Assembly: GCF_017255295.1 (NCBI RefSeq)
Contig: NZ_JAFKDE010000004.1
Coordinates: 62,001-126,000 of the forward strand
From: Nitratireductor aquimarinus
GTDB lineage: Bacteria > Pseudomonadota > Alphaproteobacteria > Rhizobiales > Rhizobiaceae
DNA: 64,000 nt
Direction: 5' to 3'
Every line of letters begins with the position of its first letter. Positions within the stretch are counted from its first letter, which is position 1. The translations under genes and the position numbers were made by a program. Below, in pieces: positions 264 to 24,463 of this stretch. The notes under the pieces are model-generated. The model did not search any database. It was not told where the DNA came from and saw only the letters and a list, made by a program, of their open reading frames with translations.

Positions 264-3035
264 TTGACACAGGTCGAACTCGACATCGCTGGCGGCGCGC
301 TGCGGCGGGAGGGCGAAACCCTGCCATTGCGCCCGAAGACCCTGGCCGTTCTTCTTGCGCTCATCGAGCGGCAGGGCGAGACGGTCAGTCAGGACGAGTT
401 GCGCCGTCTGATATGGGGAAACCGGCACGGCAGCGATGCCGGCCCGAAACAGTGCATCCGGGAGTTGCGCCGCCTTCTGGGCGACAGCGCCACCGCCCCC
501 CGCTTCATTGAGACGGTTGGTCGCTACGGCTACAGGCTCTCCGGGCAAATCGACATTCCCGGCGCGAACACACCTTCCCCTTCCAGCGAACGTCCCCTAT
601 GCGTGGGGCGCGAACGAGAACTGGAAGCACTCACCAAAAGCCTGACCGCCGCCCGCCGCGGCAATCGCGCCATCGCGCTGATCGCCGGAGAGAGCGGAGC
701 CGGCAAGACGCGCCTCGTCGACAGTTTTCTGGCCACCCTGACCGGCGCAGCCCCGGCCATGTGGATCGCGCATGGCCAGTGCCTGCCGCATCCGGGCGCC
801 CGCGAGCCCTACGGCCCATTGCTCGAAATCCTCTCGCAGATCGTCAATGCCCGCCCCGTCGCAAACCTGCCGCGCCTCCTGCGTGAAACGGCCCCCACCT
901 GGCTGGGGCATCTGCCCGGAGCCGATCACGGCCACGACCCGGCAACGTTCGACCCCGGCCAGAAATTCGGCCCCGACCGTCCGGACCCGATGCCGCGCGA
1001 ATTCACGCTTCTCATGGAGCGGATCACCCGCGAACAGCCGGGCATACTGGTTCTGGAGGATCTGCACTGGTCCGACCAGAGCACACTCGCCTGGCTCTGC
1101 GCCTGGGGGCTGCAGCGCACACCCGCGCGCCTGATGGTGCTCGTCACCTATCGTTTCGATGAGGTGGATACTGCGGACGAACTCGCCACGACACTCAGCC
1201 ACCTGAACCGGCAACCGGGCATCCAGACGCTGGCTCTGGAGGGGCTTGGCGCAGAAGCCGTGCATGACTATCTGGCGCAGCGCTTTCCCGGCAACGCGTT
1301 TCCGCCCTCGCTCGCTGCCGCTCTGGCCCACCGCACGGAAGGTCACGCCATCCTCGTCGAAGCGGTCACGGAGCAATGGCTGCGGAATGGCGATATCGGT
1401 CGGGCGGCCGGACGCTGGCAGTTGAACCGCCCCGAGAAAGAACTGGTTCTGGCAATCGCCCCCGGCGTGCGTGACGTGATTTCAGCAGAAATTGGCCGCC
1501 TCACACCGGCCGAGCGCCAGCTTCTGGAAGCTGCAAGCGTCGCCGGACCACGTTTCTCTGCCGCTGCCATGGCCGACACGCGGGAAGCACGGGAAGACGT
1601 CGAACACAGGCTGGAGAACCTTGCCCGCAATCGCCGCTTCATTGAACAGGCCGGCGTGAGCCAACAGCCCGATGGCACGCTCGCCACGCGCTATGCCTTC
1701 CGGCATGCGCTTTATCATGAAGCGATCTATGACGGCATCCCCGCCGCCATCCGGCAGGGCCTGCACCAGCGCATCGGCGACCGGCTCGAGACCATCTTTG
1801 CATCCGACACTGCCGAAGTGGCGACAACGCTTGCAGACCATTTCGAGCGCGCGGCAGACTGGCTGAAGGCAGCCCGGTATCGCGGGCTCTCCGGCATACG
1901 CGCGCTTGATCGCGGCGCAGCCCATGACGCCGCCACGCAGCTTCGTCAGACGCTTGCGCTTCACGAACGCTGTCCGGATGCCGACAGAAGCCAGAGCTCA
2001 GCCGAACTCAGGACACTTCTCGGCCTCGGCGCGGCGCTGATCGTCTCCGAGGGTTTTACGCGCGAAGAACTCAGGGCCGTCTACAAACGCGCCAGCACGC
2101 TCGCCCTTGAGGTTGGCGACCCTGCCGAAATCGCCCCGGTTCTGGCCGGCATGTGGAACTACCATCTCTCGCGCGCAGAATTCGGCAAGGCCGAAGAGAT
2201 CGCCCTCGGTCTTCGCAACCTTTCAGCAAACGTCCCCGTGCAGATCGCCATGGCAACGCACAACGCCATTGGTCAGACCGCGTTTTTCACTGGATCCCTT
2301 GCGGCCAGCCTGCCTGAGATCGATGCTGCATTGTCCCTGCATGAGGGTGCCGAAGAGGAAGCCGGCGACACGCTGCTCGGCGAAAATGCGGGCATTGTCT
2401 GCCGACAATACGCCGCCTGCGTGCAGCAAATTCTCGGAAATGATGCAGAGGCCGACGCGCATTTGACGGCGGGCATGCGCGAAGCCGAAGCGCTCGATCA
2501 ACCGTTCGGACAGGCCCAGATGTTCTGGGCAGGCGCGATCATTGCCCACGAGCGTGGCGATGCGGCGCTCACGCTGGAGCGCGCGCAGCGCATGATCGAG
2601 ACCTGCCGGCGCGCCGACATTCCCTACTGGATCCCTCCAGGAAACATGCTGGCTGGATGGGCGCGCGCAATGCTCGGAGACCCCGCAGGCGAGGAGCAGC
2701 TGCGCAATGGCCTCACCGCCTATGAGGCGATGAACGCGCGCCTGACCCTGCCCTATGGTCTGGGGCTATTTGCCGAAGTTCTACTCCACGACGGCAGGAT
2801 CTCCGACGCGCTCAACACGCTCCGCCGCGCGCTGCGCCTCGTTCGCTCCACCGGCGAGTGCTGGTATGAAGCCGAGCTTCACCGCCTCTGGGCGAAGCTG
2901 GCGCAGCAGACAGGACGGCCCAAGAACGCGCAACGCGCCCTCGAAAGAGCGCTCAACATTGCCCGTCGTCAGGGCGCAATCGCCTTTGAGAAGCAGGCTT
3001 TGGCGCAACTGGCGGAAATCAGCCTGAAAGCCTAG
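264..3035 (+). CDS. winged-helix transcriptional regulator with AAA ATPase and TPR-like C-terminus
   Basis: This 923-aa protein combines three parts. Residues about 1-95 form an OmpR/CadC-type winged helix, with the typical ending FIETVGRYGYRL. Residues about 110-400 form an AAA_16/ORC-like ATPase with Walker A GESGAGKT (142-149) and a Walker B-like LEDLHWSD (264-271). The rest is a long helical region with TPR-like periodicity. The architecture resembles large signal-sensing regulators (AfsR/MalT-like logic) in which the TPR region binds an effector and ATP controls activity. The start is TTG at 264. An in-frame stop lies at 195 and no upstream ATG exists in frame. It may be translationally coupled to the 10-codon leader. 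It faces the diguanylate cyclase with 17 bases between stops. Target genes are unknown; the divergent edge gene is an obvious candidate. Confidence 0.8.
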   Translation: MTQVELDIAGGALRREGETLPLRPKTLAVLLALIERQGETVSQDELRRLIWGNRHGSDAGPKQCIRELRRLLGDSATAPRFIETVGRYGYRLSGQIDIPGANTPSPSSERPLCVGRERELEALTKSLTAARRGNRAIALIAGESGAGKTRLVDSFLATLTGAAPAMWIAHGQCLPHPGAREPYGPLLEILSQIVNARPVANLPRLLRETAPTWLGHLPGADHGHDPATFDPGQKFGPDRPDPMPREFTLLMERITREQPGILVLEDLHWSDQSTLAWLCAWGLQRTPARLMVLVTYRFDEVDTADELATTLSHLNRQPGIQTLALEGLGAEAVHDYLAQRFPGNAFPPSLAAALAHRTEGHAILVEAVTEQWLRNGDIGRAAGRWQLNRPEKELVLAIAPGVRDVISAEIGRLTPAERQLLEAASVAGPRFSAAAMADTREAREDVEHRLENLARNRRFIEQAGVSQQPDGTLATRYAFRHALYHEAIYDGIPAAIRQGLHQRIGDRLETIFASDTAEVATTLADHFERAADWLKAARYRGLSGIRALDRGAAHDAATQLRQTLALHERCPDADRSQSSAELRTLLGLGAALIVSEGFTREELRAVYKRASTLALEVGDPAEIAPVLAGMWNYHLSRAEFGKAEEIALGLRNLSANVPVQIAMATHNAIGQTAFFTGSLAASLPEIDAALSLHEGAEEEAGDTLLGENAGIVCRQYAACVQQILGNDAEADAHLTAGMREAEALDQPFGQAQMFWAGAIIAHERGDAALTLERAQRMIETCRRADIPYWIPPGNMLAGWARAMLGDPAGEEQLRNGLTAYEAMNARLTLPYGLGLFAEVLLHDGRISDALNTLRRALRLVRSTGECWYEAELHRLWAKLAQQTGRPKNAQRALERALNIARRQGAIAFEKQALAQLAEISLKA

Positions 3036-3052: not shown

Positions 3053-3835
3053 TTATGCGCAGGCAGCGCGCAGACCGTCGCCCGGACCAAGAAAATCGGG
3101 CACGCAGATCCGATTGCGCCCGTTGCGCTTTGCCCGGTAGAGCTGGCTGTCCGCAATCGTCATAAGCAACGAGAAGTCAGCCCTGCTTTCCGCAAAGGCC
3201 ACACCGATGCTCACGCTTAGCGGCACGACCATGTCAGACGGCGTGCGCAGCCCCAGCCGCTCGATATCGGCGCGCACCTTCTCAGCAAGCTGCACCCCGT
3301 CATCAAAAGAAGCGGCTTCAACAAACACACCGAATTCCTCACCACCGATGCGCGCCGCAAGCCCGGTCTCGCCAACCACGTTTCGGATAACGCTGGCAAT
3401 GGCGCAAAGCGCCTGATCGCCGACCAGATGACCGTGCGTGTCATTGATGTTCTTGAAGTCATCCGCATCAATGACCAGCAGAACCCCGCCTGCCCCGCGC
3501 TGACCGATCTCATCCAGATCGGTGACAAACGAGCTGCGGTTCAGCAATCTCGTCATCCCGTCCGTGCGCGCGGCAATGGCCAGTTCGTCATATACATCGG
3601 CAAGCTCTGTGTGCGCCGCTTCCAGCTGCGCATGCGCAAGCGCGATCCGGTGGTTCTGGTAGAATGTGTAGGTGCACGTGGGAAATGCGATCAAAAGCGG
3701 ACACAGAATGCTCATGATCACCGGAAACCAATTGATCCCGCCGCCAGCCAGGCTGAGCACAGCCCAGCAGATCACCAGCGAGGCGATGATGGACATAAAA
3801 GTGGCGACTGCCGCTTTGAACAATACGAGCTTCAT
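3053..3835 (-). CDS. membrane-anchored diguanylate cyclase (GGDEF domain)
   Basis: The 260-aa protein would make cyclic di-GMP from two GTP at the inner membrane. Two hydrophobic helices occupy residues about 5-32 and 36-55, then a short coiled linker (about 60-90), then a GGDEF domain to the C-terminus. The active-site motif is GGEEF at 164-168, with DADDFKNINDTHGH (about 123-136) as the Mg/GTP-binding region. The RxxD inhibitory site usually found just before the motif is absent (GETG there), so product inhibition at that site is unlikely. No separate sensor domain is visible; the small membrane part could sense something itself. It is convergent with the regulator and is followed upstream on the same strand by the outer-membrane protein. 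Confidence 0.9.
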   Translation of the reverse strand: MKLVLFKAAVATFMSIIASLVICWAVLSLAGGGINWFPVIMSILCPLLIAFPTCTYTFYQNHRIALAHAQLEAAHTELADVYDELAIAARTDGMTRLLNRSSFVTDLDEIGQRGAGGVLLVIDADDFKNINDTHGHLVGDQALCAIASVIRNVVGETGLAARIGGEEFGVFVEAASFDDGVQLAEKVRADIERLGLRTPSDMVVPLSVSIGVAFAESRADFSLLMTIADSQLYRAKRNGRNRICVPDFLGPGDGLRAACA

Positions 3836-4809: not shown

Positions 4810-4854
4810 TGATCGATAATTATTGACTCATACCCAAACGATCATTATCGATCA
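4810..4854 (+). promoter_or_regulatory. putative promoter and inverted-repeat operator of the deoR operon
   Basis: Two perfect 11-base arms, TGATCGATAAT (4810-4820) and ATTATCGATCA (4844-4854), form an inverted repeat with centres about 34 bases apart. Between and within them lie a -35-like TTGACT (4823-4828) and, 17 bases on, TATCGA (4846-4851) as a -10. The downstream arm thus overlaps the -10 and the upstream arm abuts the -35. This is the expected layout for repression by the adjacent DeoR protein. Assignment to that protein is inference. Confidence 0.6.
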
Positions 4855-4870
4855 CACCAGGGAGGATAAA

Positions 4871-5644
4871 TTGACAAGTACGCGCCACCGTTTTCCGCAG
4901 GAACGCCAGCAGCAGATGATCGACGTGATCGTCGAGCGTAAGCGCGTGGGCACGGCCGAGCTTGCCAAACTCCTCAAGATTTCACTGCCGACGGTTCGCC
5001 GTGACCTGACGGTCCTGGAGCAGGCCGGCATCGTTGCCAGAACCCATGGCGGCGTGGTCGCGCGCGGCATTGGCGAGGGCGACACCGAACCGCTCTTCCT
5101 GGAGAAGGTGCGCCACCATCAGACACTCAAGCAGCGTATCGGCCAGAAGGCCGCCGCCAGCATTGAAGACGGTCAGGTGGCGCTGCTCGATTCCGGCACC
5201 ACGGCGCTGGCCACCGCTCACGCATTGGCGGGAAGGCGCATCACCGTGGTGACGATGGACATAAAAGTCGCCGAGGCAGCCGCCGTCGGGCCAACCGAGG
5301 TCCACATCGTCGGTGGGCGTGTGAGAAATGGCTATTTCAGCCTGGTCGGCAACTGGGCGAAGACCGCGCTCGCCACCATTCAGGCCGACATCTGCTTCAT
5401 CGCCGCCGACGCCATCGATGAAGGCGGCGTGACGACGGCAACCTTCGACGAGGCCGAGACCAAGCGGCTCGCCATGTCACGCGCCAAGCGCACCGTGGTC
5501 ATCACCGATCACAGCAAATTCGGCAAACGCGTGTTCGCAGAAGTCTGCGGGCTCGACGCCATCGACGAACTCATCACCGACAGGGACGCGGAGGATCTGA
5601 TTGCGCCCTATCGGAAGCTGATACCGGCCATAACGCTCGCCTGA
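4871..5644 (+). CDS. DeoR-family transcriptional repressor
   Basis: The 257-aa protein has an N-terminal DeoR helix-turn-helix (residues about 26-60, TAELAKLLKISLPTVRRDL) and a C-terminal sugar-phosphate-binding DeoRC domain containing DSGTT and the late motif TDHSKF. DeoR repressors usually respond to a phosphorylated intermediate of the pathway they control. The start is TTG 4871, preceded by GGAGG five bases away. A longer reading from TTG 4823 is rejected because that codon is the -35 box. It is the first gene of a plus-strand operon to 15474. Regulator, BtpA and M42 genes together recall the enterobacterial sgc locus (SgcR, SgcQ, SgcX). Confidence 0.9.
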   Translation: MTSTRHRFPQERQQQMIDVIVERKRVGTAELAKLLKISLPTVRRDLTVLEQAGIVARTHGGVVARGIGEGDTEPLFLEKVRHHQTLKQRIGQKAAASIEDGQVALLDSGTTALATAHALAGRRITVVTMDIKVAEAAAVGPTEVHIVGGRVRNGYFSLVGNWAKTALATIQADICFIAADAIDEGGVTTATFDEAETKRLAMSRAKRTVVITDHSKFGKRVFAEVCGLDAIDELITDRDAEDLIAPYRKLIPAITLA

Positions 5645-5679
5645 GGGGGGCGGCCGACAACAAGAAAGAAAGGCACGGA

Positions 5680-6489
5680 ATGTCAAAGTTCAAGCAGCTC
5701 TTCGGCGACAGGAAACCCATCATCTCGATGGTGCATCTTCTGCCGATGCCCGGCTCACCGCTCTATGATGCGGATGCCGGCATTGACGGCATTGTCGCCG
5801 CAGCGCGCAAGGATCTCACCGCCCTGCAGGAAGCCGATGTCGATGCGGTGATGTTCGGCAATGAGAACGACCGCCCCTATGAGCTCAAGGTCGACATCGC
5901 CTCCACCGCCGCCATGGCCTATGTGATCGGCCAGCTGCGCAGCGAGATCAAGAAGCCTTTCGGCGTCAACGTTCTGTGGGATCCGATGAGCACCGTGGCG
6001 CTCGCAACGGCAACCGGCGCTTCCTTCGTCCGCGAAATCTTCACCGGCACCTATGCCTCCGACATGGGCCCGTGGACGCCGAATGCCGGCGAGGCGCTGC
6101 GCTACCGCAACCGCCTTGGCCGTGACGATCTGGTGATGCTCTACAACGTGTCGGCCGAATTCGCCGATTCCATGGACAAGCGCCCGCTGGCCGACCGCGC
6201 CCGCTCTGCCGTCTTCTCCTCCATTCCCGACGCCGTCCTCGTTTCGGGCGCCATCACCGGCGAGGCCGCCGAGATGACCGATCTCAAATCGGTCAAGGAA
6301 AAGGTCACCGACACACCGGTTCTGGCCAATACGGGCGTTCGCCACAACACCGTGGCCGACATTCTCAAAATCGCCGATGGCTGCATCGTGGGCTCGTCGC
6401 TCAAGGTCGACGGCAACACCTGGAACCCGGTCGATCCAGAGCGGGCCAGGGAGTTCATGCAGATCGTAAAAGCCGCCCGCGGCGGCTAA
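5680..6489 (+). CDS. BtpA/SgcQ family TIM-barrel protein
   Basis: The 269-aa protein matches the BtpA/SgcQ family. It opens with KPIISMVHLLPMPGSP, has a central GVNVLWDP, and ends with VLANTGVRHNTVADILKIAD followed by a phosphate-binding-like GSSLKVDG. Family members are predicted TIM barrels. Cyanobacterial BtpA affects photosystem I stability, while SgcQ sits in a sugar operon of enterobacteria. The enzymatic reaction is not established. There is no signal peptide, so it is cytoplasmic. It lies 35 bases after deoR and 25 before the first permease, so it belongs to the operon. An aldolase- or isomerase-like step is possible but unproven. Confidence 0.8.
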   Translation: MSKFKQLFGDRKPIISMVHLLPMPGSPLYDADAGIDGIVAAARKDLTALQEADVDAVMFGNENDRPYELKVDIASTAAMAYVIGQLRSEIKKPFGVNVLWDPMSTVALATATGASFVREIFTGTYASDMGPWTPNAGEALRYRNRLGRDDLVMLYNVSAEFADSMDKRPLADRARSAVFSSIPDAVLVSGAITGEAAEMTDLKSVKEKVTDTPVLANTGVRHNTVADILKIADGCIVGSSLKVDGNTWNPVDPERAREFMQIVKAARGG

Positions 6490-6514
6490 CCATCGGGACC
6501 TGGGGAGGAAGACC

Positions 6515-7498
6515 ATGGACGCAAGACAGGACACCACAGGCTCACACTTAAAGAGCCTGGGAATATTGACGGCGCTGATATTCGTTGCGCTTGCAATCGC
6601 CAGTCCGACATTCCTGTCATCGTCAAACCTCAAATCCATGGGCTTCCAGTTCCCCGAATTCGGGCTTCTGTCCCTTGCAGTCCTGCCGACGATGATTTCC
6701 GGTGGCATCGACCTTTCGGTCGTCGCCATCGCCAATCTGGCTTCCATCGTGGCCGCAGTGACCATGAAAGCCGGACCGGAAGTGGCATGGCTCGCCATCC
6801 CCGCCGGTCTCGCCGTGGGGCTCGTCTGCGGCGCGTTCAACGGCTTTCTCATCGCCTATCTGCGGCTGCCGCCCATCCTCGCGACGCTCGGCAGCATGCA
6901 GCTCTTCGCCGGCATCGGCATCATCATCACGCGCGGCCCGGCCATCACCGGTCTTCCCGACTGGTACACGGCGTTCGGCAACTGGACGATCGGCGGCGTG
7001 CTCCCGCTTCCGCTTGTGCTGTTTGCACTGGTCGCCTCGGGCCTTGCCTTCCTTCTGCGCCGCACGCCGGTGGGCATGCGGCTGCGCCTGTTTGGCGCAA
7101 ACCCGGTCGCCGCCGATTTCGCCGGTGTGCCCGGCAAGAAGCTGATCATCCAGATCTACGCAATCGCCGGCTTTATCGCCGCACTTGCCGGTCTGGTGGT
7201 TCTGGCGCGCGTCAACTCGGCCAATGCCGACTATGGCAGCTCCTATCTGCTGCTCGTCATCCTCATCAACATCCTTGCCGGCGTCAGCCCGGCCGGCGGC
7301 TTCGGCACCGTCACCGGCGTGGCTCTGGCCGTGATCTGCCTGCAGTTCATCTCCAGCGGGCTCAACATTCTCTCCTTCAGCGCCTTCTCCCGCGACCTCT
7401 TCTTCGGCGGCCTGCTCATTGCGGTCATGTCCTATCGCGCGGCTTTCGGTTCCTTCGATGTGAAGGCGTTCTTCAAACGAAAGGCTCACCAATCATGA
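6515..7498 (+). CDS. sugar ABC transporter permease 1 (RbsC type)
   Basis: This is a 327-aa polytopic inner-membrane protein with about 8-10 hydrophobic segments and the family hallmark MISGGIDLSVVAIANL near residue 66. This belongs to the BPD_transp_2 family (RbsC/XylH/AraH), which forms the channel for pentose, hexose or autoinducer-2 importers. GGGAGG upstream of the ATG gives a strong ribosome site. A second, different permease is encoded at 12828, so the channel is probably a heterodimer served by the single double-NBD ATPase. Its stop overlaps the next start (ATGA at 7495-7498). Confidence 0.92.
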   Translation: MDARQDTTGSHLKSLGILTALIFVALAIASPTFLSSSNLKSMGFQFPEFGLLSLAVLPTMISGGIDLSVVAIANLASIVAAVTMKAGPEVAWLAIPAGLAVGLVCGAFNGFLIAYLRLPPILATLGSMQLFAGIGIIITRGPAITGLPDWYTAFGNWTIGGVLPLPLVLFALVASGLAFLLRRTPVGMRLRLFGANPVAADFAGVPGKKLIIQIYAIAGFIAALAGLVVLARVNSANADYGSSYLLLVILINILAGVSPAGGFGTVTGVALAVICLQFISSGLNILSFSAFSRDLFFGGLLIAVMSYRAAFGSFDVKAFFKRKAHQS

Positions 7499-8595
7499 AA
7501 GAGCGTCTCCGCTCCCTGCTCAAAACCCTGATGCTGACACCGGGCCTGTCCGGGCATGAAGACCGCGTGCGCCGCCGCATCGAGAAAGAGCTCGCCGATC
7601 TGCCGCTTTCCATGCGCACGGATCGCCTCGGCAATCTGATCGCCACACTGGAAGGTGACGAAGGTGCGCCCTCCGTCATGCTGTTCGCCCACACCGACCA
7701 GCTCGGCTTCATGGTGCGCAAGATCGAGGATAACGGTCTGGTGCGCATCGAGCGGCTGGGCGGCATCCCGGAAAAGGCCCTGCCCGCGCAGGCCGTTCTG
7801 TTCTGCGTCGGCGAGGGCCGCGATGTGCAGGGCGTCATTGCCAACAAGAGCCATCACGCCACGCCGCCGGAAGAGAAATACAAGGTCACGCCCTATCAGG
7901 AAGTGTTCATCGATGTGGGCGCGGAAGACGCCGGGGGCGTCAAGGCGCTGGGCATCGAGATCGGCACGCCGGTGGTCTATGATCCGCGCGTCATTGAACT
8001 CAATGAAAACCGCCTGATCGGCACTTCGGTCGATGACCGGGCCGGCTGTGCCGTCATCGTCGAGGTCGCCCGCGCACTCGCCGCGGAAGGCCCGCGCCCC
8101 ACGGTGCATTTCGTCTTCGCCGTGCTGGAGGAGTTCAATCTTCAGGGCGCAATGGTCGCGGCCCGCGCGATCAACCCCGACATTGCCATCCAGCTCGATC
8201 TGGCGCTCAACGCCGACACGCCCGACATGACCCAGCGCGGTGAAGTCGCGCTCGGCAACGGCCCGGCGATGAGCCTCTACTCGTTCCACGGACGCGGCAC
8301 GCTGAACGGCACGATCCCGCACCCTGCCCTGCCAAAGCTCTTCTCCGACACGGCTTCATCCGAGGGGATCAATCTCCAGCGCACGGCCCACACGGGTGCA
8401 CTGACCGATTCCTCCTATGTGCAGCTCGTCAATGAGGGCGTGGCCTGTATCGATATGTGCTTCCCCTGCCGCTACACGCACACCTCGCTCGAAATGTGCG
8501 ACCTGCGCGATCTGGAAGCCCTCACGAAACTGCTGATCGCCGCGATCCGCCGGGTCGACGCCGGTTTCAGCCTCAACCGGGATGACTACACCTGA
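7495..8595 (+). CDS. M42-family metallopeptidase (SgcX-like)
   Basis: The 366-aa cytoplasmic protein has the complete M42/M28-type di-metal ligand set: H66 (FAHTDQLG), D180 (GTSVDDRAG), E212/E213 (LEEFNLQG), D235 (QLDLALNAD) and H329 (CRYTHTS). The family includes dodecameric aminopeptidases and enzymes once annotated as endoglucanases, among them SgcX of the sgc locus. The intact active site argues for real hydrolysis, perhaps of an amide or peptide bond in the imported compound. I use ATG 7495, which overlaps the permease stop. The frame continues upstream but only as an overlap with that gene. It also overlaps the kinase start by one base. Confidence 0.88.
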   Translation: MKERLRSLLKTLMLTPGLSGHEDRVRRRIEKELADLPLSMRTDRLGNLIATLEGDEGAPSVMLFAHTDQLGFMVRKIEDNGLVRIERLGGIPEKALPAQAVLFCVGEGRDVQGVIANKSHHATPPEEKYKVTPYQEVFIDVGAEDAGGVKALGIEIGTPVVYDPRVIELNENRLIGTSVDDRAGCAVIVEVARALAAEGPRPTVHFVFAVLEEFNLQGAMVAARAINPDIAIQLDLALNADTPDMTQRGEVALGNGPAMSLYSFHGRGTLNGTIPHPALPKLFSDTASSEGINLQRTAHTGALTDSSYVQLVNEGVACIDMCFPCRYTHTSLEMCDLRDLEALTKLLIAAIRRVDAGFSLNRDDYT

Positions 8596-10109
8596 TGGAT
8601 TGCTACCTCGGCATCGACATCGGAACCTTCGAAACAAAGGGCGTTCTGGCCGACGGTCAGGGACGCATTCTGGCCACGGCAAAGCGACGGCACGACATGA
8701 TCGTGCCGCAGCCCGGCTGGGCCGAACATGACGCCGAGAAAGACTGGTGGGGGGAGTTCTGCGCCATAAGCAAAGAACTGATCGCCACCACCGGCATCGC
8801 CCCCGGCGACATCAAGGCCGTGGCGGCAAGCGGCATCGGCCCCTGCATGCTGCCGGTCGATGAAGACGGCAAGCCGCTGATGAACGCCGTGCTCTATGGC
8901 GTCGACACCCGCGCTTCCGAGGAGATCGAGGAACTGACCGCCGAGATCGGCGAGGAGACGCTGCTTGCCGAATGCGGCAACACCCTCACCTCCCAGTCGG
9001 TCGGCCCCAAGATCCTGTGGCTGAAGAACAACCGGCCCGAGCTTTATGCCCGCACCCACAAGGTGATGAACTCCTCATCCTTCCTGGTGCACCGGCTGAC
9101 GGGACGCTTCGTCATCGATCATTATTCCGCGTCTTCCTCAAGCCCGCTCTACGACATCCACACCAACCGGTGGAGCGACCGTTACGCCGACCGCATCATC
9201 GCGCCCGAGCGTCTCCCGGAGCTTCTCTGGAGCACCGAGATTGCGGGCCATGTCACGGAACAGGCGGCGAAGGAAACCGGACTTGCACCCGGCACGCCGG
9301 TTACGGCGGGCACCATCGATGCGGCGGCGGAGGCCGTCAGCGTCGGTGTTCTGGGAACCGGCGAAATGATGATGATGTATGGCTCGACCATGTTCATCAT
9401 CCTCGTCACGGATCACCGCGTGGAGGATGGGCGGCTGTGGTATGCGCCATGGCTTTTCAAGGGACAGCACGCCTGCATGTCCGGCACCTCCACCAGCGGC
9501 ACGCTCACCCGCTGGTTTCAGGAGCAGTTCGCCCGCGAGCTGGATGCCGAGGAGGCGCTGCGGCTGCTCGCCGAAGAGGCGCAGGGCGCGCCGGTCGGCG
9601 CAAATGGCATCGTGGTCCTGCCCTATTTCTCCGGCGAACGCACGCCGATCCACGATCCGCATGCGCGCGGCGTCATTTTCGGCCTCGACCTCACCCACAC
9701 ACGGGCAGACATCTATCGCGGTTTCCTTGAGGGCATCGCCTATGGCGTGACGTCGGTGATCGAGACCTATGAGAGCGCCGGCGCAGCGATCGAGCGCATC
9801 GCCGCCGTCGGCGGCGGCACCAAGAACGCCGTCTGGTCGCAGGCCATCTCGGATGCGAGCGGCAAGACACAGGACGTCGCCGCCAACACGGTCGGCGCAG
9901 CCTTCGGCAACGCATTTCTCGCAGCCGTCGCCGTGGGAGCGGCCGGGCGCGACGATATCCGGCGCTGGAACCCGATGGAGCGGCGCATCGCGCCGCAGGA
10001 GGAGAACCGCGCCGTCTATGACGCGCGCTATCGCACATTCAAGGAATTGTACGCCCGCAACAGCGATCTGATGAGGGGAGCGGAACAGCGGACGTCCGAT
10101 GAAGCCTGA
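8595..10109 (+). CDS. FGGY-family carbohydrate kinase
   Basis: The 504-aa protein has the actin-fold sugar-kinase layout: an N-terminal phosphate loop GIDIGTFETKG (residues 6-16), a central AGTIDAAAEA carrying the likely catalytic Asp, and a C-terminal adenosine-binding region with VGGGTKNAVWSQ. It resembles the xylulokinase branch of FGGY kinases, which phosphorylate pentuloses, hexuloses, polyols or autoinducer-2. The substrate cannot be read from sequence. The start ATG 8595 overlaps the M42 stop (TGATG). Its position between importer genes implies it phosphorylates the transported compound or a product of the upstream enzymes. Confidence 0.9.
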   Translation: MDCYLGIDIGTFETKGVLADGQGRILATAKRRHDMIVPQPGWAEHDAEKDWWGEFCAISKELIATTGIAPGDIKAVAASGIGPCMLPVDEDGKPLMNAVLYGVDTRASEEIEELTAEIGEETLLAECGNTLTSQSVGPKILWLKNNRPELYARTHKVMNSSSFLVHRLTGRFVIDHYSASSSSPLYDIHTNRWSDRYADRIIAPERLPELLWSTEIAGHVTEQAAKETGLAPGTPVTAGTIDAAAEAVSVGVLGTGEMMMMYGSTMFIILVTDHRVEDGRLWYAPWLFKGQHACMSGTSTSGTLTRWFQEQFARELDAEEALRLLAEEAQGAPVGANGIVVLPYFSGERTPIHDPHARGVIFGLDLTHTRADIYRGFLEGIAYGVTSVIETYESAGAAIERIAAVGGGTKNAVWSQAISDASGKTQDVAANTVGAAFGNAFLAAVAVGAAGRDDIRRWNPMERRIAPQEENRAVYDARYRTFKELYARNSDLMRGAEQRTSDEA

Positions 10110-10165
10110 CTGACGGCCATCCCGGTCGACGGGGCGCACTGGAAGTGTATCAAGAGGAGGAAAAC

Positions 10166-11164
10166 ATGGCTTTGAATTTGAGGAAACTGACCGCCGGCGT
10201 GGCGCTCGGCGCCGCGCTGATCGTCGGGGCCGGCGCCGTTACGCACGCGCAGGATGCCAAGCACTCCATCGTGACGGTGGTGAAGCTTTCGGGCATCGCC
10301 TGGTTCAACCGCATGGAAGACGGCGTCAATGAATACGCCGCGGAAACCGGCCACGATGCAACGCAGGTTGGACCGGCTTCCGCCGACGCGGCGCTACAGG
10401 TGCAGATGATCGAAGACCTGATCGCCAAGAAGGTCGACGCCATCACCGTCGTGCCGAATTCGCCGGAGGCTCTGGAACCGGTTCTCGGCAAGGCGCTCGA
10501 CGCCGGCATCAAGGTCATCGGCCACGAGGCGTCCAGCCTCCAGAACATCACCTATGACGTGGAAGCCTTCGACAATGCGGCCTATGGCCGTCACCTGATG
10601 GAAGCGCTCGCACAGGCCATGGGCGGCGAAGGCGAATATGCCGTGTTCGTCGGCCATCTGACCGCCAAGACCCACAATGAATGGGTCGACGCCGCCATCG
10701 AGTACCAGAAAGAAAAATACCCGAACATGACGCTTGTCACCGACAAGCTGGAGAGCAACGAGCAGCAGCAGACCGCCTACCAGAAGACCAAGGAGCTTCT
10801 GCGCACCTATCCGAACCTGAGGGGCATTCAGGGCTCGGCAGGCGAAGATGTCGTGGGTGCGGCTCTGGCCGTTGAAGAAGCCGGTCTCGACGGCAAGGTC
10901 AAGATCGTCGGCACCAGCCTCGTTTCGGTTGCCGGCCCTTATCTGGAGACCGGCGCCATCGAGATGATCTCCTTCTGGGATCCCGCGAAGGCAGGCATCG
11001 CCATGAACAAGGTCGCTTCCATGGCCATCGCAGGTGAAGAGATCACCGATGGCATGGACCTCGGCGTCGAGGGCTACAACGCCATCAAGCTCGACGGCAA
11101 GGTGCTCTACGGCCAGGCCTGGGTCGATGTCACCACGGACAACATGAGCGAATACGATTTCTGA
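10166..11164 (+). CDS. periplasmic sugar-binding protein (RbsB/LsrB type)
   Basis: The 332-aa product has a signal peptide (residues about 1-28, ending in THAQ) and a Peripla_BP_4 fold resembling rhamnose/AI-2 binding proteins (RhaS, LsrB). Seen motifs are VKLSGIAWFNRMEDGV near the N-terminus, the repeated AKKVDAITVVPNSPEAL hinge region and GIQGSAGEDVVGAALAVEE. The start is ATG 10166 behind a near-perfect AGGAGG; the GTG at 10145 is only an upstream extension. It delivers substrate to the two permeases of this operon. Strong hairpins follow the gene. Confidence 0.92.
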   Translation: MALNLRKLTAGVALGAALIVGAGAVTHAQDAKHSIVTVVKLSGIAWFNRMEDGVNEYAAETGHDATQVGPASADAALQVQMIEDLIAKKVDAITVVPNSPEALEPVLGKALDAGIKVIGHEASSLQNITYDVEAFDNAAYGRHLMEALAQAMGGEGEYAVFVGHLTAKTHNEWVDAAIEYQKEKYPNMTLVTDKLESNEQQQTAYQKTKELLRTYPNLRGIQGSAGEDVVGAALAVEEAGLDGKVKIVGTSLVSVAGPYLETGAIEMISFWDPAKAGIAMNKVASMAIAGEEITDGMDLGVEGYNAIKLDGKVLYGQAWVDVTTDNMSEYDF

Positions 11165-11190
11165 TCGTAGCGTGTTGACGTGACCGGAAA

Positions 11191-11290
11191 CGAGAGACGC
11201 ATGGAGCCCGCCTGCGGTCCTGGCATCAGGACCGGCAGCCGTCTGCGCGCCTCTCGATCCAACCGCCGCCGGGCCTTGTCCGCCCGGCGG
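11191..11290 (+). promoter_or_regulatory. nested hairpins after the binding-protein gene
   Basis: The 152-base gap to the ATPase gene holds CGGTCCTG-GCAT-CAGGACCG (about 11215-11234). This is enclosed by CGAGAG/CTCTCG arms (11191-11196, 11251-11256). A second stem, CCGCCGGGC/GCCCGGCGG, follows (about 11266-11290, 7-base loop). No U-tract follows, so these look like 3'-end protecting or attenuating structures rather than full terminators. They should raise binding-protein mRNA relative to downstream transport genes. Confidence 0.6.
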
Positions 11291-11316
11291 CCTTGCCTGA
11301 ACAACAGAGATTTCCC

Positions 11317-12831
11317 ATGAACGACGAAGCGAGCGGAAGCACGCCCATCCTGCAGATGCGGGACATCCGCAAGGCCTACGGGCCGGTGCGCGTGCTCGAA
11401 GACGTCAATCTCGAACTGAGCACCGGTGAGGTGCGCTGTCTGGCCGGCGAGAACGGCTCGGGCAAATCGACACTGATCAAGATCCTGTCAGGCGTGGTGA
11501 GCGCCGACGCAGGCCAGGTTTCGCTGAACGGCCGCCAGTTGGGCAACGACCCGATGGGCGCCATCACCGCCGGCCTTTCGGTCATCTATCAGGATTTTTC
11601 GCTGTTTCCCAATCTGAGCGTCTGGGAGAACATCGGCTTCCTGACCTCGGTTACCTCCGCAGACGTGCTGCACAAACGCAGCGCGCGCCGCAGACTGGCC
11701 ATCGACACGCTGAAGCGCATGCAGGTGGAGATCGACCCCGACACGCCGGTCGAACTCCTCCCCGTCGCATCCAAACAGCTCGTCGCCATCGCCCGCGCGC
11801 TCGCCAACAGGGCGCGCATCATCGTCATGGATGAGCCGACCACCGCGCTGACGCGCAGCGAGGTCGCCCATCTTCTCGAGATCGTCGGCGCACTGAAGAA
11901 GGAAGGCGTTTCCTTCCTGTTCGTCAGCCACAAGATCGAAGAGGTTTTCGCCGTCTGCGACACGGTCACCGTGCTGCGCGATGGCTCCGTGGTGGTGGAA
12001 GGCCCCATCGGCGAATTCGACACCGAGCGCCTGGTCGAGGCCATGACCGGCCGTTCCGTGGACAGTCAGCGGCTCCCGCGTGAAGAAGGCGCGGTCCAGC
12101 GCCCGTTCCTCGCCGCCAGCGGCCTCGGCCGTCGCGGCAATTTCGTCGATGTCGATCTGGAGCTGCGTCCGGGCGAGATCGTCTCCGTGGTCGGCCTTCT
12201 CGGCTCCGGCCGAACCGAACTCGCCCAGACCCTGTTCGGCTACATGAAGCCGGATGCCGGGCGCATCGAGATCGATGGCGAGACCGTCACCTTCAAAAGC
12301 CAGCACGACGCCATCGAGCGGGGCATCGCCTATGTGCCGGAAGACCGGCTGACGGAAGGTCTCTTCCTCAACCAGTCGATCCGCGACAACATCACCGTCT
12401 CCAGCCTGGAAAAGTCGACCCATTTCGGCATCGTCAGCGCCGCAAGCCTGTTGCAGCGGGCACGCGACGCAGTGAAGAATCTCCGGATCAAGACGCCTGA
12501 CGTCACGCCCGCCGTGGCGACGCTTTCAGGCGGCAACCAGCAGCGCGTCGTGCTGGCGCGCTGGATGGAGATCGATCCCCGGCTTCTCATCCTCAACGGG
12601 CCGACGGTCGGCGTCGATGTGGGGTCCAAACGCGAGATCCACGAACTGCTCGTTTCGCTCAGCCGCAGCGGCACGGCGGTCATGGTCGTCACCGACGACA
12701 TCGCCGAGGCCATCGCTTTGTCCGACCGCATTCTGGTGATGGTGCGCGGGCGCATCACCGCAGGCTTCGACGCCGCGACGGTGGACGAAGACACACTCTA
12801 CAACGAAGTCATCAGGGAGGACCGGACATGA
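11317..12831 (+). CDS. sugar ABC transporter ATP-binding protein (RbsA type, two NBDs)
   Basis: The 504-aa protein carries two nucleotide-binding domains. NBD1 has Walker A GENGSGKST (44-52) and Walker B VMDEPTTAL, with a degenerate signature (LPVASKQ). NBD2 has an altered Walker A (GSGRTEL), a consensus signature LSGGNQQRV and a Walker B region reading LILNGPTVGVD, lacking the usual Asp-Glu. The expected result is one catalytic site (NBD1 Walker motifs with the NBD2 signature) and one dead site, an extreme form of the RbsA pattern. Start ATG 11317 is chosen over an upstream TTG. Its end overlaps the second permease (ATGA). Confidence 0.92.
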   Translation: MNDEASGSTPILQMRDIRKAYGPVRVLEDVNLELSTGEVRCLAGENGSGKSTLIKILSGVVSADAGQVSLNGRQLGNDPMGAITAGLSVIYQDFSLFPNLSVWENIGFLTSVTSADVLHKRSARRRLAIDTLKRMQVEIDPDTPVELLPVASKQLVAIARALANRARIIVMDEPTTALTRSEVAHLLEIVGALKKEGVSFLFVSHKIEEVFAVCDTVTVLRDGSVVVEGPIGEFDTERLVEAMTGRSVDSQRLPREEGAVQRPFLAASGLGRRGNFVDVDLELRPGEIVSVVGLLGSGRTELAQTLFGYMKPDAGRIEIDGETVTFKSQHDAIERGIAYVPEDRLTEGLFLNQSIRDNITVSSLEKSTHFGIVSAASLLQRARDAVKNLRIKTPDVTPAVATLSGGNQQRVVLARWMEIDPRLLILNGPTVGVDVGSKREIHELLVSLSRSGTAVMVVTDDIAEAIALSDRILVMVRGRITAGFDAATVDEDTLYNEVIREDRT

Positions 12832-13844
12832 ACGCGCTTGCCCGCATCTTTGCAACCCCGCAGGGCATCGTGTTCCTCGTCGCGGTGCTTTTCGCAGTCG
12901 TTCTCGGCCTGCTGAATCCGGCCTTCTTCACGCCCTCCACGCTGATCGACCTTGCCCGCAACGGGCTGGTGACCGGTATTTTCGCGATGGGCGTGATGAT
13001 GGTCCTGGCCTCCGGCGGCATCGATGTCTCGCACACCGCCATCGGCGCCTTCGCCATGTATGCGACCATGAAGATCGTGCTGGGCATCGATCTCGACCTG
13101 CCGATCATCGCCTATTTCGTCATCGCCGCCGCCATTGGCGCGGGGCTCGGGCTCGTCAACGGCCTGCTCATCGGCGGGCTGGGGCTCAACACGCTGATCG
13201 TCACGCTCGGCACGCTTTCCTTCTTCCGCGGCGCGCTGCTCACCTTCCTTGGCACCACCTACATCACCTCGGTGCCGCGTGAAGTGATCAATTTCTCCCG
13301 CACCATCCTCATCCGCATCGAGAACGCGGTCGGCCAGATGGTGTCGCTTCCCGCCTCCTTCCTCGTGCTCGTGGCGGTCACCATTGCGCTCGCCATCATC
13401 ATGAACTTCACCCTGTTTGGGCGGAAGGTCTACGCAATCGGTGGTTCGGAAGAAGCAGCCCAGCGCATCGGCATCCGCATCAAGCGGGTCAAGGTGCTGA
13501 TCTATGTGATCGCCGGCGCGATTGCCGGTCTTGCCGGCATGACGCATGTGACGCTCTCGCGCATGGCCAACCCGTTCGATCTCGTCGGCATGGAGCTGAA
13601 CGTCATCGCCGCCGTGGTTCTGGGCGGCGCGCGCATCACCGGCGGACACGGTACCGTGCTCGGCACGCTTCTCGGCGTGTTCGTGATCACCATGATCAAC
13701 ACCACGCTGCTGATGGCCGGGGTTCCATCCTACTGGCAGAAATTCGTCATCGGCTGTCTGATCATCGTGGGCACCGGCCTGCCCATCGTCTTCGACCGTC
13801 TCGCAAAACACCGCCAGCGCATGGCGCGCCCGCTGGAAGCCTGA
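12828..13844 (+). CDS. sugar ABC transporter permease 2 (RbsC type)
   Basis: This is a 338-aa multi-pass inner-membrane protein of the same family as the permease at 6515 but clearly a separate paralogue. It has the signature LASGGIDVSHTAIGAFAMY near residue 62 and the cytoplasmic loop RIGIRIKRVKVLIYVIAG that contacts the ATPase. A 4-base overlap with the ATPase gene indicates translational coupling. It probably pairs with permease 1 to form the channel. Confidence 0.92.
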   Translation: MNALARIFATPQGIVFLVAVLFAVVLGLLNPAFFTPSTLIDLARNGLVTGIFAMGVMMVLASGGIDVSHTAIGAFAMYATMKIVLGIDLDLPIIAYFVIAAAIGAGLGLVNGLLIGGLGLNTLIVTLGTLSFFRGALLTFLGTTYITSVPREVINFSRTILIRIENAVGQMVSLPASFLVLVAVTIALAIIMNFTLFGRKVYAIGGSEEAAQRIGIRIKRVKVLIYVIAGAIAGLAGMTHVTLSRMANPFDLVGMELNVIAAVVLGGARITGGHGTVLGTLLGVFVITMINTTLLMAGVPSYWQKFVIGCLIIVGTGLPIVFDRLAKHRQRMARPLEA

Positions 13845-13869
13845 ACGCAATCCCCTGGGAGGACAAGGC

Positions 13870-14865
13870 ATGAAAAAGATCCTGAACAACCCCGCAGACT
13901 ATGTCGATGAAATGCTCGAAGGCATGGTCGCTGCCCATCCTGAAACCTATGCGCAGCCGGTGCGCCGCGTGATTGCGCGGGCAGCGGGCGCGAAGAAGGG
14001 CAAGGTCGGCATCGTGACGGGCGGCGGCTCCGGCCATCTCCCGATCTTCACCGGATATGTGGGCACCGGCCTGCTCGATGCCTGCGCCATTGGCGACGTG
14101 TTTGCCAGCCCCTCCGCCGAGCAGATGGCCGAAGCGATCCGGCTGGCCGATGGCGGCGCGGGCGTGCTGCGCCTTTATGGCAATTACGGCGGCGATGTCA
14201 TGAATTTCGACATGGCCGGCGAAATGGCCGAGATGGAACACGACATCCGCACCACCACCGTTCTTTTGACGGACGATGTGGTTTCGGCCCCTAAGGAGGA
14301 GGCCGAGAAGCGGCGCGGCGTGGCCGGCATGGTCTATGCCTTCAAGATCGCTGGCGCTGCCGCCGAACGCGGCGGCGATCTGGATGAAGTCACCCGCATC
14401 GCCCGGAAAACCGCCGATGCCTGCCGCTCCATCGGCATGGCACTGACGCCCTGCACCATCCCGCAGGCAGGCAAGCCGACCTTCGAGATCGGTGAAGCGG
14501 AAATGGAAATGGGCATGGGCATCCATGGCGAGCCCGGCATCTGGCGCGACGCGATCAAGCCCGCCGACGAGATTGCAGAAGAGATGCTGGAGCGCCTCAT
14601 GGCCGACCAGCCTCTGGCAAAGGGCGACCGCATTTCCATTCTCGTGAACTCGCTCGGCGCAACGCCCGCCGAAGAGCTCTACATTCTCTACCGCCACGCA
14701 AAGCAAAAGCTTGATGCGCTCGGTGTCGAGATCGTGATGCCGCTGGTTGGCCGCTACGCGACCTCCATGGAGATGACGGGCGCGACCATCACGGTCATCA
14801 AGCTGGACGAAGAGCTTGAAACCCTGCTCAAGGCTCCGGCAGACTGCGCCTTCTGGCGCGTATAG
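13870..14865 (+). CDS. dhaK: dihydroxyacetone-kinase-type subunit DhaK
   Basis: The 331-aa protein matches DhaK, the ketose-binding half of dihydroxyacetone-type kinases. The N-terminal GIVTGGGSGHLP loop is present, and the essential His that forms a covalent hemiaminal with the ketose lies in MGIHGEPG (His219). DhaK-type kinases act on dihydroxyacetone but also on longer ketoses such as erythrulose in some actinobacteria and proteobacteria. No PTS-type DhaM is present, so the partner DhaL is expected to use ATP. A GGGAGG-like site precedes the ATG and the gene lies 25 bases after permease 2. The true substrate is unknown. Confidence 0.9.
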   Translation: MKKILNNPADYVDEMLEGMVAAHPETYAQPVRRVIARAAGAKKGKVGIVTGGGSGHLPIFTGYVGTGLLDACAIGDVFASPSAEQMAEAIRLADGGAGVLRLYGNYGGDVMNFDMAGEMAEMEHDIRTTTVLLTDDVVSAPKEEAEKRRGVAGMVYAFKIAGAAAERGGDLDEVTRIARKTADACRSIGMALTPCTIPQAGKPTFEIGEAEMEMGMGIHGEPGIWRDAIKPADEIAEEMLERLMADQPLAKGDRISILVNSLGATPAEELYILYRHAKQKLDALGVEIVMPLVGRYATSMEMTGATITVIKLDEELETLLKAPADCAFWRV

Positions 14866-14877
14866 GGAGAGGACGCG

Positions 14878-15474
14878 ATGATCGACAGTTCAGCCATCGC
14901 GAAAGCATTGAGCGGCATTGCCGCTCACACCGCGACTGCCAGCGAGGAGTTGTGCAGCGCCGACGGCGCACTCGGTGACGGCGATCTCGGCATTACCGTA
15001 TCCAAGGGGTTTGCCGAAGCCGCAGAAACCGAGCTTCCCGACGATGTGGGCATGGCGCTTTTTGCAGCCGCCAAGGCCTTCCAGCGCGTCTCGTCATCCT
15101 CTTATGGAACGCTGCTGGCCACCGGTTTCATGGCTGCCGCGAAGCTGGAGAAGGGAAAGACGGAAATTGCGCCGGACGACATTCCGGTCCTCGTCGCCGC
15201 CGCCCGCGACGCCATGATGGCGCGCGGCAAAGGCAATCTCGGCGACAAGACGGTGCTCGACAGCCTCGACGCCATCGCAGAGGCGCTCGAAGGCGCAACG
15301 CCGGAAACCATGGTCGACACGGCCATCACCGCCGCCGGCGACGCCGTTGAACAGTTCCGCAACCAGCCCAACAGGCTCGGCCGCGCCCGTATGTTCGGCG
15401 AGAAGAGCATCGGACTGGCCGACCCCGGCCAACTGGCCTTTCTGCGCATCGTCGAAGGGCTGAAACACGGCTAA
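14878..15474 (+). CDS. dhaL: dihydroxyacetone-kinase-type subunit DhaL
   Basis: The 198-aa all-alpha DhaL domain binds ATP-Mg and phosphorylates the ketose held by DhaK. The metal-binding cluster DGALGDGDLGITVSKG (residues about 29-44) is intact, as is the later NLGDKTVLDSLD. It starts 12 bases after dhaK behind GGGAGAGG and is the last gene of the operon, followed by two hairpins. Because no PTS phosphotransfer subunit is encoded nearby, an ATP-dependent rather than PEP-dependent kinase is the likely form. Confidence 0.9.
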   Translation: MIDSSAIAKALSGIAAHTATASEELCSADGALGDGDLGITVSKGFAEAAETELPDDVGMALFAAAKAFQRVSSSSYGTLLATGFMAAAKLEKGKTEIAPDDIPVLVAAARDAMMARGKGNLGDKTVLDSLDAIAEALEGATPETMVDTAITAAGDAVEQFRNQPNRLGRARMFGEKSIGLADPGQLAFLRIVEGLKHG

Positions 15475-20545: not shown

Positions 20546-20554
20546 GGCTGGGCC

Positions 20555-22351: not shown

Positions 22352-22420
22352 CACTCACTCATAATTGCCGGCATCATTGCAGGGCCGGACCGATGCCGCG
22401 CGGATGCGCGGCATGTCGGG

Positions 22421-22576
22421 TCACTTCCAGGCGAAGCGTTTCAGAAGCATCGAGAAAAGCGCCGGACGGGCGCGGCGGCGCTCCAGCACCTGATCGGGCA
22501 TGGCCATGGGGGCTGCCGGCAGTGCATGGCGTGCGAGCGTCACGTGCCTGCTATCCGTCTCAAGAACGTGCGTCAT
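22421..22576 (-). CDS. small protein between opgG and opgH (opgI position)
   Basis: This 51-aa reading starts at ATG 22576, overlapping the end of opgG by 17 bases, with GGAGAGAG as ribosome site. It ends 69 bases before opgH. The sequence is basic at the end (VLERRRARPALFSMLLKRFAWK region) and has no signal peptide or membrane helix. R. sphaeroides has a small gene, opgI, in exactly this slot. The C-terminal half also loosely resembles part of the cytoplasmic N-terminus of long OpgH proteins, so it may be a detached piece of OpgH. Function is inferred from position only. Confidence 0.5.
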   Translation of the reverse strand: MTHVLETDSRHVTLARHALPAAPMAMPDQVLERRRARPALFSMLLKRFAWK

Positions 22577-24161: not shown

Positions 24162-24463
24162 ATATGGAACTCGTATGCAGAAAGTCTCAGGGTGAAGCCG
24201 CGGCACAAACCACGCGCTTTCAACGCATCAATTGCGGTTTAGTTTCGGCAGGGCACATAACATTCCAAGACTGCGCGTTACCAAAATTTGAAGGGACAGC
24301 GCCAAGCGGCGGATCGCTTTACAGCGTCCCATACCGACTTGCAATCCTCATCTGAATCGTGCCCAATCCCCCACCTCACCCAGGGTGAGAGAACCCACCA
24401 AAAGCCGCTGCACCCCAGGCATGTCAGGGCGAACCGCGGCGCAGAAATCCGGGGAATTTGTCA
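24162..24463. other. divergent intergenic region opgG / SDR gene
   Basis: Three hundred bases separate the divergent starts. The part nearest opgG holds A/T-rich tracts expected of its promoter. GGGGA at about 24451 serves the SDR start. Nothing else recognisable was seen. Confidence 0.4.

Follow-up and report, generated by a model that had tools for sequence, protein, structure and literature searches.

A Nitratireductor operon built round BtpA and an M42 hydrolase, with a candidate importer for D-ribulose-like ketoses

Two described systems are the closest to the operon reported here. The sgc operon of Escherichia coli (sgcR-sgcE-sgcA-sgcQ-sgcC-sgcB-sgcX, b4300-b4305), for which no substrate is known (PMC13343008), associates a DeoR-type regulator, the BtpA-family protein SgcQ and the M42-family protein SgcX with uptake by a phosphotransferase system (PTS) and with the epimerase SgcE. 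The Aau system of enterohaemorrhagic E. coli (EHEC) and the related Rbl transporter of Citrobacter rodentium are ATP-binding cassette (ABC) importers made of a binding protein, an ATPase and two permeases. According to their description (PMC12307932), the EHEC binding protein AauA (PDB entry 9i1m) holds D-ribulose with a KD (dissociation constant) of 1.98 uM through Lys37, Trp43, Glu118, His167, Glu196 and Ser223, Ser223 being one of two residues in contact with O5 and no side-chain contact being listed for C1; Rbl supports growth on D-ribulose, with an FGGY D-ribulokinase and an SIS isomerase. We describe an operon of Nitratireductor aquimarinus that shares features with both, located at positions 4871-15474 of a 64,000-nt stretch (contig NZ_JAFKDE010000004.1, positions 62,001 to 126,000, from the 4.57 Mb assembly GCF_017255295.1). 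This whole stretch is hereafter called the window, and coordinates given for N. aquimarinus refer to it.

The ten genes of the operon all lie on the + strand, and every product matches its family above the Pfam cut-off. Three junctions (permease A/M42, M42/FGGY and ATPase/permease B) are start/stop overlaps, the M42 start at 7495 producing a 4-base overlap with permease A, and the remaining intergenic gaps range from 12 to 56 nt, with the exception of the 152 nt between the binding protein and the ATPase, whose starts (10166, the most plausible, and 11317, respectively) were chosen by eye. The tightly packed unit and the families proposed in an initial annotation, made from the sequence alone, are therefore borne out. 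The same holds for an ABC importer and FGGY kinase in place of the PTS, as neither a PTS nor an SgcE-like gene is present among the ten genes, and for the lack of a dehydrogenase or an epimerase, none being retrieved from these genes by the Pfam scan. As for the likeness to sgc, which has no DhaKL, it stands for BtpA and M42 (35% identity to SgcX), whereas the link between the regulator and SgcR is weak (31%). Taken individually, the parts are familiar, the importer being of the CUT2 ketose type, the kinases FGGY and DhaK, and BtpA-M42 an sgc-like pair round which the operon is built. The best explanation of the whole, to which we give a probability of roughly 45%, is the DeoR-controlled import of a D-ribulose-like ketose, its phosphorylation by the FGGY kinase and the transfer of the ketose phosphate to BtpA. 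The gene content, its conservation, the pocket residues and the conserved operator-like site, on which this explanation is built, are direct observations.

Conservation was examined by scanning a contig collection with a BtpA alignment, from which the best 80 of at least 581 confirmed relatives were retained (69-99% identity), so that the class proportions reported here are not those of the whole BtpA family. These 80 loci were classed by tblastn with the window proteins and with proteins from other BtpA neighbourhoods, using thresholds that we set ourselves; listings based on open reading frames (ORFs) have to choose between overlapping ORFs, sometimes wrongly, which classing by tblastn avoids. 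Class 1, defined by the CUT2 module of the window, includes 17 loci, of which 13 are plain and four are fused to another module (‘1+3’ loci), and spans Nitratireductor, Stappia, Aquamicrobium, Aurantimonas, Aureimonas, Mangrovicella, Antarcticirhabdus, Microvirga, Rhizobium albus and the Brucella/Ochrobactrum group. Class 2 gathers 55 loci (Rhodobacterales, Devosia, Hoeflea and others) with BtpA-M42 and without the CUT2 module, FGGY being present in 52 of them (all except L145, L148 and L154). The gene order is the same as in the window and the products are similar (BtpA 69-76%, M42 53-68% and FGGY 55-64% identical), but the importer is usually of the CUT1 type (binding protein in 29 of the 35 loci with full flanks). 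Class 3 is limited to six loci, in which FGGY is mostly accompanied by DeoR, SDR, HAD and CUT1 genes, and two loci fitted no class.

Since the CUT2 module recurs at 17 of the 80 loci with a close BtpA, the operon is more than a chance assemblage. M42 is encoded downstream of BtpA, in the same orientation, at each of the 68 class-1 and class-2 loci (the four 1+3 loci left out), with permease A inserted between the two in class 1; a same-strand FGGY gene is found in 65 of these 68 loci, and begins within 60 nt of M42 in all but one of the 65. BtpA, M42, FGGY and DhaK, the combination for which the initial annotation had advised a neighbourhood search, do co-occur elsewhere, at 13 of the 80 loci. 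Within Nitratireductor, a BtpA at least 95% identical was detected in seven of ten genomes (the genome of the window included), so that the operon is not universal in the genus; the BtpA of N. aquibiodomus is 99% identical. Besides the genome of the window, five of the seven were inspected and all show the operon, although in the ORF listing, from which overlapping ORFs are dropped, permease A is missing in two and the ATPase is split in two. Viral contigs searched with the BtpA alignment yielded no relative.

The 55 class-2 loci (L120-L181) represent a large Rhodobacterales/Rhizobiales cluster with BtpA-M42-FGGY, sometimes with SIS, of which we found no description. Additional genes frequently retrieved in this class are a CUT1 importer, aldo/keto reductase, L-fuconolactonase-like, FucU-like, PfkB, xylose-isomerase-like and HxlB-like SIS genes, as named from family scans of example loci with scores below equivalog cut-offs, and L165 contains a galactarate-dehydratase-like gene. 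A passage on a fucose mutarotase in a paper on the Roseobacter group (PMC10203303) offered no link. L172, from a 9 Mb genome recorded as ‘Mycobacterium sp. KBS0706’, a label that is possibly wrong, is a class-2 cluster of alphaproteobacterial type (BtpA 73%).

The transport module is composed of permease A (6515-7498; PF02653, 119.5 bits), the binding protein (10166-11164; PF13407, 220 bits), an ATPase with two ATPase domains (11317-12831; two PF00005 stretches) and permease B (12828-13844; PF02653, 128.8 bits), all of the CUT2 type. When compared with an Aau-like locus of E. coli (L184), permease A is 39% identical to the second permease, permease B 35% to the first, the ATPase 45% and the binding protein 38% to their counterparts. 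The binding protein is homologous to AauA over its full length (224.8 bits to 9i1m), and five of the six D-ribulose ligands (Lys37, Trp43, Glu118, His167 and Glu196) are conserved in the window protein as well as in all 17 class-1 relatives, the sixth, Ser223, being replaced by Gly in all of them. Two deoxyribose-linked paralogues that are closer overall (49-53%), encoded beside deoC, rbsK and an aldose epimerase gene, exhibit Gln167, Asp196 and Met223 in place of three of the six residues. Relatives of the importer adjoin an annotated ribulokinase gene in L186 and, in L187, the gene for AraD together with those for a 3-epimerase and an FGGY kinase. As judged from these comparisons, the importer subfamily probably serves five-carbon and smaller sugars; the pocket of the window protein is probably nearest to the D-ribulose type, with an alteration next to O5, and its cargo would be a ketopentose-like, probably D-ribulose-like, sugar. 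PDB entry 5bra, which we take to originate from Ochrobactrum, was considered as an orthologue of the binding protein and rejected: the Ochrobactrum class-1 protein scores lower against it than the window protein (309.6 versus 325.1 bits), which identifies 5bra as a paralogue. L187 (4666-13880, from a Citrobacter portucalensis plasmid) associates an Aau/Rbl-like importer with DeoR, FGGY, L-ribulose-5-phosphate 3-epimerase and AraD, and has the appearance of an L-xylulose or L-lyxose locus.

Upstream of the operon, a promoter/operator region (4810-4854, + strand) contains a 14-nt inverted repeat (TGATCGATAATTAT / ATCATTATCGATCA), the arms of which are 17 nt apart, 93% complementary and flank a TTGACT -35-like box (4823-4828). 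Just downstream of TTGAC is a 15-nt core site (GATCATTATCGATCA, 4840-4854; outline GATCANTAAYNATCA). The first gene (4871-5644, TTG start) encodes a DeoR/GlpR-type regulator (DeoRC, 151 bits; HTH_DeoR, 55 bits), presumably the repressor of the operon. To derive the core pattern, the window sequence was combined with those of 11 class-1 loci; the pattern is found upstream of DeoR in 15 of the 17 loci of this class, including L102, L112, L117 and L146, which had not been used in its derivation; it has a single match in the 64 kb window and none in the 63 other loci (1,125,223 bases). This distribution points to a candidate operator for DeoR, probably overlapping the -10 region. The two class-1 loci without a match are L103, whose sequence begins inside DeoR, and L116 (Rhizobium albus), the only class-1 locus for which the upstream region is present yet devoid of the pattern. 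In R. albus (L116/L054), the region upstream of the operon encodes, in the opposite orientation, an RpiB-type isomerase, accompanied by what looks by eye like a TRAP binding protein. Terminator-like sites were not enriched relative to shuffled sequences (7 observed, shuffle mean 7.8).

The second gene (5680-6489) encodes the BtpA/SgcQ-family protein, presumed to be a ketose-phosphate enzyme of the TIM-barrel type (PF03437, 261 bits; TIGR00259, 265 bits, above cut-off). It is 48% identical to SgcQ over 267 aa, both sharing a PFGVNVLWDP stretch. A profile built from 12 diverse BtpA members matches the C-terminal half of TrpA, the alpha subunit of tryptophan synthase (E 1.5e-7), and more weakly PcrB/GGGPS-type synthases; in enzymes of these types, the C-terminal half holds phosphate. 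Taken singly, nine of these 12 reach Trp_syntA with E values no higher than 1, the best being 8.4e-9, and single members also match other Pfam families weakly, such as Asp_Glu_race (3.3e-4). In addition, BtpA is commonly associated with a phosphorylating system: this is FGGY in the three main classes, the PTS in sgc and, at four distant loci, a carbohydrate kinase (PfkB or another). The likeness of the profile to the phosphate-binding half of TrpA suggests that BtpA acts on a phosphorylated substrate, which is probably a ketose.

Four class-1 loci of the fused type are of special interest for this question. In L106-L109 (Brucella grignonensis, two Ochrobactrum and one Rhizobiales), BtpA is absent from its place between DeoR and permease A in the CUT2-M42-FGGY module; instead, a lone BtpA (82-83%) stands between this module and a second one, DeoR-FGGY-HAD / SDR-CUT1 (order taken from the ORF listing), and each of the four genomes has exactly one BtpA-family match. 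The simplest reading of this single BtpA between two kinase modules is that two kinase-led branches probably converge on one BtpA in Brucella/Ochrobactrum-type genomes, which makes these genomes a sharp test of the BtpA substrate. A wider proposal would be that BtpA/SgcQ represents a new family of ketose-phosphate lyases (aldolases) or epimerases, at which several bacterial and archaeal sugar routes led by kinases would end in common, that SgcX-type M42 ‘peptidases’ are its partners and have a sugar derivative, not peptides, as their substrate, and that E. coli sgc is a PTS-fed version of the same pathway; we advance it tentatively, as an idea that is rather more likely to need revision than to hold as worded.

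Other BtpA neighbourhoods are diverse. In Rhizobium leguminosarum (L090, 1452-11304), genes for a CUT1 importer, two hydrolases of the isochorismatase family and an allophanate hydrolase are immediately followed by a BtpA-FGGY pair, the hydrolase genes being presumably biuret/triuret-like; a similar stretch is present in R. beringeri (L094), and Salipiger (L093, 1-11904) has AtzF and isochorismatase genes near BtpA-FGGY-HAD. Some BtpA routes (L090, L093 and L094) may accordingly handle a sugar linked to urea or biuret. A distant BtpA subfamily (approx. 29-33%) in Rhizobium, Paracoccus and Klebsiella (L096, L097, L098 and L101) occurs with a phosphotriesterase-like gene, a CUT2-type importer and either TenA or a Zn-hydrolase, as well as, in L096, L097 and L101, with PfkB/ribokinase and glutamine-amidotransferase-like genes, both not annotated in L098. 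On a Thermus thermophilus plasmid (L089, 8274-16016), the order is DeoR-BtpA-FGGY-SDR-CUT1, with a BtpA 66% identical to that of the window, which is surprisingly close across phyla.

The two kinases of the operon were compared with known enzymes. The FGGY kinase (8595-10109; FGGY_N, 175 bits; FGGY_C, 119 bits) belongs to the XylB side, below the xylulokinase cut-off (TIGR01312, 331 bits versus a cut-off of 380); it retains the Asp of the XylB ‘GGGDNAAGAV’ stretch, which we assume to be catalytic, and displays ‘GP’ in place of the XylB ‘MH’. In DhaK (13870-14865; PF02733, 403 bits), His56, Asp109 and His219 (H56, D109 and H219) align with those of E. coli DhaK, presumably the catalytic residues, and DhaL (14878-15474; PF02734, 110 bits) is the ATP-binding subunit type. 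As no match to DhaM (TIGR02364) was found in the genome, the pair is probably ATP-dependent, and a PTS-type DhaKLM kinase was rejected. DhaKL is the least conserved part of the operon: DhaK is at the locus in 13 of the 17 class-1 cases and elsewhere in the four remaining genomes (hence in 17 of 17 genomes), and was found in four of four class-3 genomes and in 10 of 18 class-2 genomes tested, i.e. genomes with the BtpA-M42-FGGY triad and another transporter. A general release of dihydroxyacetone by BtpA, considered as a candidate reaction, is weakened by the eight class-2 genomes in which DhaK was not found.

We infer every reaction of the proposed route, from the class of the cargo and the FGGY product to the BtpA reaction and the roles of M42 and DhaKL. 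DeoR would control the import of a D-ribulose-like ketose, either a ketopentose or a C1-substituted derivative, which the FGGY kinase would phosphorylate and pass on to BtpA. The latter, as a phosphate-binding TIM barrel, would take the place of the epimerase or aldolase of other pentulose operons, preferably through a TrpA-like retro-aldol cleavage or, next, through an epimerization, and would feed triose or pentose phosphates. M42 may act on a linked derivative of the sugar, and DhaKL would serve as an ATP-dependent kinase for a C3/C4 ketose, released in the route or imported by the same transporter.

Several observations weigh against this explanation. The change of Ser223 to Gly at an O5 contact means that the ligand may differ from D-ribulose, and the pocket alone is not ribulose-specific, given that His167 is also kept (with Asn196 and Ala223) in a Sinorhizobium meliloti binding protein encoded beside DhaKL genes (L182), and that L187, next to its AraD, 3-epimerase and FGGY genes, has Val167. 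The FGGY kinase shares only 24% (L187) and 30% (L186) identity with the kinases beside related importers, RblK not being part of this comparison, and D-ribulose 5-phosphate itself would require neither BtpA nor M42. Concerning BtpA, sequence searches retrieved no solved structure of the family, and the window protein matches Trp_syntA at E 0.006, under the Pfam cut-off. FGGY was not seen near BtpA at several distant loci (e.g. L064-L068 and L082, where other kinases were not searched for), and L095 has no kinase beside BtpA. Finally, no DhaK was found in 8 of the 18 class-2 triad genomes, the completeness of which is not given.

The strongest competing explanation is that two parallel branches share one ketose importer, FGGY-BtpA-M42 handling a C5 ketose and DhaKL separately handling imported dihydroxyacetone or erythrulose rather than a later product of BtpA. 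In its favour are the eight triad genomes in which no DhaK was found and the absence of DhaKL from four of the 17 class-1 loci, which also render doubtful the finishing step that the initial annotation had ascribed to DhaKL. Moreover, S. meliloti L182 (1-9630) encodes importer proteins related to those of the window (51% identity for the binding protein and 50% for permease B) beside two DhaK (48-50%) and two DhaL annotations, and differs from the window in that BtpA, M42 and FGGY are not annotated in the 12.9 kb inspected. Nevertheless, DhaK is part of the operon at 13 of the 17 class-1 loci and is encoded away from it in the four remaining genomes, as a coupled step would also need, so that we regard parallel branches as a serious contender but on balance unlikely.

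The route suggested in the initial annotation, in which M42 would cleave an imported amide- or amine-linked sugar, FGGY would phosphorylate it, BtpA would process it and DhaKL would complete the pathway, depends primarily on the M42 protein (7495-8595; PF05343, 258.5 bits). The AHTD, DDR, EE, ADTPD and PCRYTH stretches of this protein, which we take to be the metal-ligand and catalytic motifs, align with solved M42 enzymes, and SgcX is the nearest of the three E. coli paralogues (223 bits versus 148 for FrvX and 128 for YpdE), a tree separating the SgcX side from FrvX/YpdE with a support of 99/98 and very long branches. On its sequence, the protein is a predicted hydrolase tied to BtpA, with intact motifs, and its fixed place after BtpA and, as a rule, before FGGY is compatible with a cleavage step, as is a C1 of D-ribulose with no listed side-chain contact in AauA, so that a C1 substituent could fit. 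Sinorhizobium L095 (3152-8822) could also be read in this sense: its BtpA (48%) is found with DeoR, a sugar isomerase, a PIG-L deacetylase, a Gfo/Idh oxidoreductase and an alpha/beta hydrolase, M42 not being annotated. However, the operon contains no amine-handling gene, BtpA-FGGY loci without M42 exist, and the pocket resembles that of a free ketose; the main hint of an amide link is the M42 family itself, and the binding protein directs us towards a D-ribulose-like ketose instead, which makes an amide-linked substrate improbable.

A plain D-ribulose utilization locus of the Rbl/Aau type with accessory genes would account for the architecture of the importer and for the FGGY kinase, both as in Rbl. 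Yet the divergence of this kinase, the change at Ser223 and the conservation of BtpA and M42 despite the direct entry of D-ribulose 5-phosphate into the pentose phosphate pathway leave this reading with a small chance only. That M42 or BtpA, instead of being a route enzyme, would assist the importer or the kinase as a chaperone or an activator, as the name of an NCBIfam BtpA model (photosystem I biogenesis protein) and the PTS chaperone-like features of SgcQ mentioned in a PNAS paper could evoke, is very unlikely in view of the occurrence of BtpA beside unrelated importers and kinases and of its profile match to a phosphate-binding half-barrel.

The import, phosphorylation and BtpA-dependent conversion of a D-ribulose-like ketose are consistent with the initial claim of an undescribed route, as no described pathway was found in the open-licence literature searched. 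In this literature, mostly judged by title among the matches listed, neither the operon nor a function of BtpA with FGGY was found described, nothing combined FGGY with BtpA or ribulose with FGGY, M42 and operon, and by title no paper dealt with SgcQ function or was pertinent to a dihydroxyacetone kinase in S. meliloti, the name BtpA designating mostly an unrelated Brucella protein and sgc names mostly human SGCE. No established role in sugar catabolism was retrieved for BtpA/SgcQ or SgcX-type M42 proteins, and a term search of the main text of PMC12307932 gave no mention of BtpA or dihydroxyacetone. Known erythritol and threitol pathways use a polyol dehydrogenase and tetrulose-phosphate isomerases; this candidate was rejected, as these enzymes are not among the ten genes. 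In contrast to sgc, the operon offers a soluble binding protein, with a largely D-ribulose-receptor pocket, and a separate kinase, so that the substrate and the intermediate could be identified stepwise. It thereby provides a way into the function of the long-unexplained sgc genes of E. coli.

With respect to the collection, three E. coli/Klebsiella records of chromosome size (L098, L099 and L184; 4.8-5.4 Mb) are filed under plasmids. In the remainder of the window, the operon is preceded by a large regulator (264-3035), which combines an OmpR-type DNA-binding domain with an AAA ATPase and matches TPR weakly; next to it is a GGDEF protein on the - strand (3053-3835). Further downstream, on the - strand (19367-24206), OpgC, a family-2 glycosyltransferase (OpgH-like) and MdoG form a group of osmoregulated periplasmic glucan genes.

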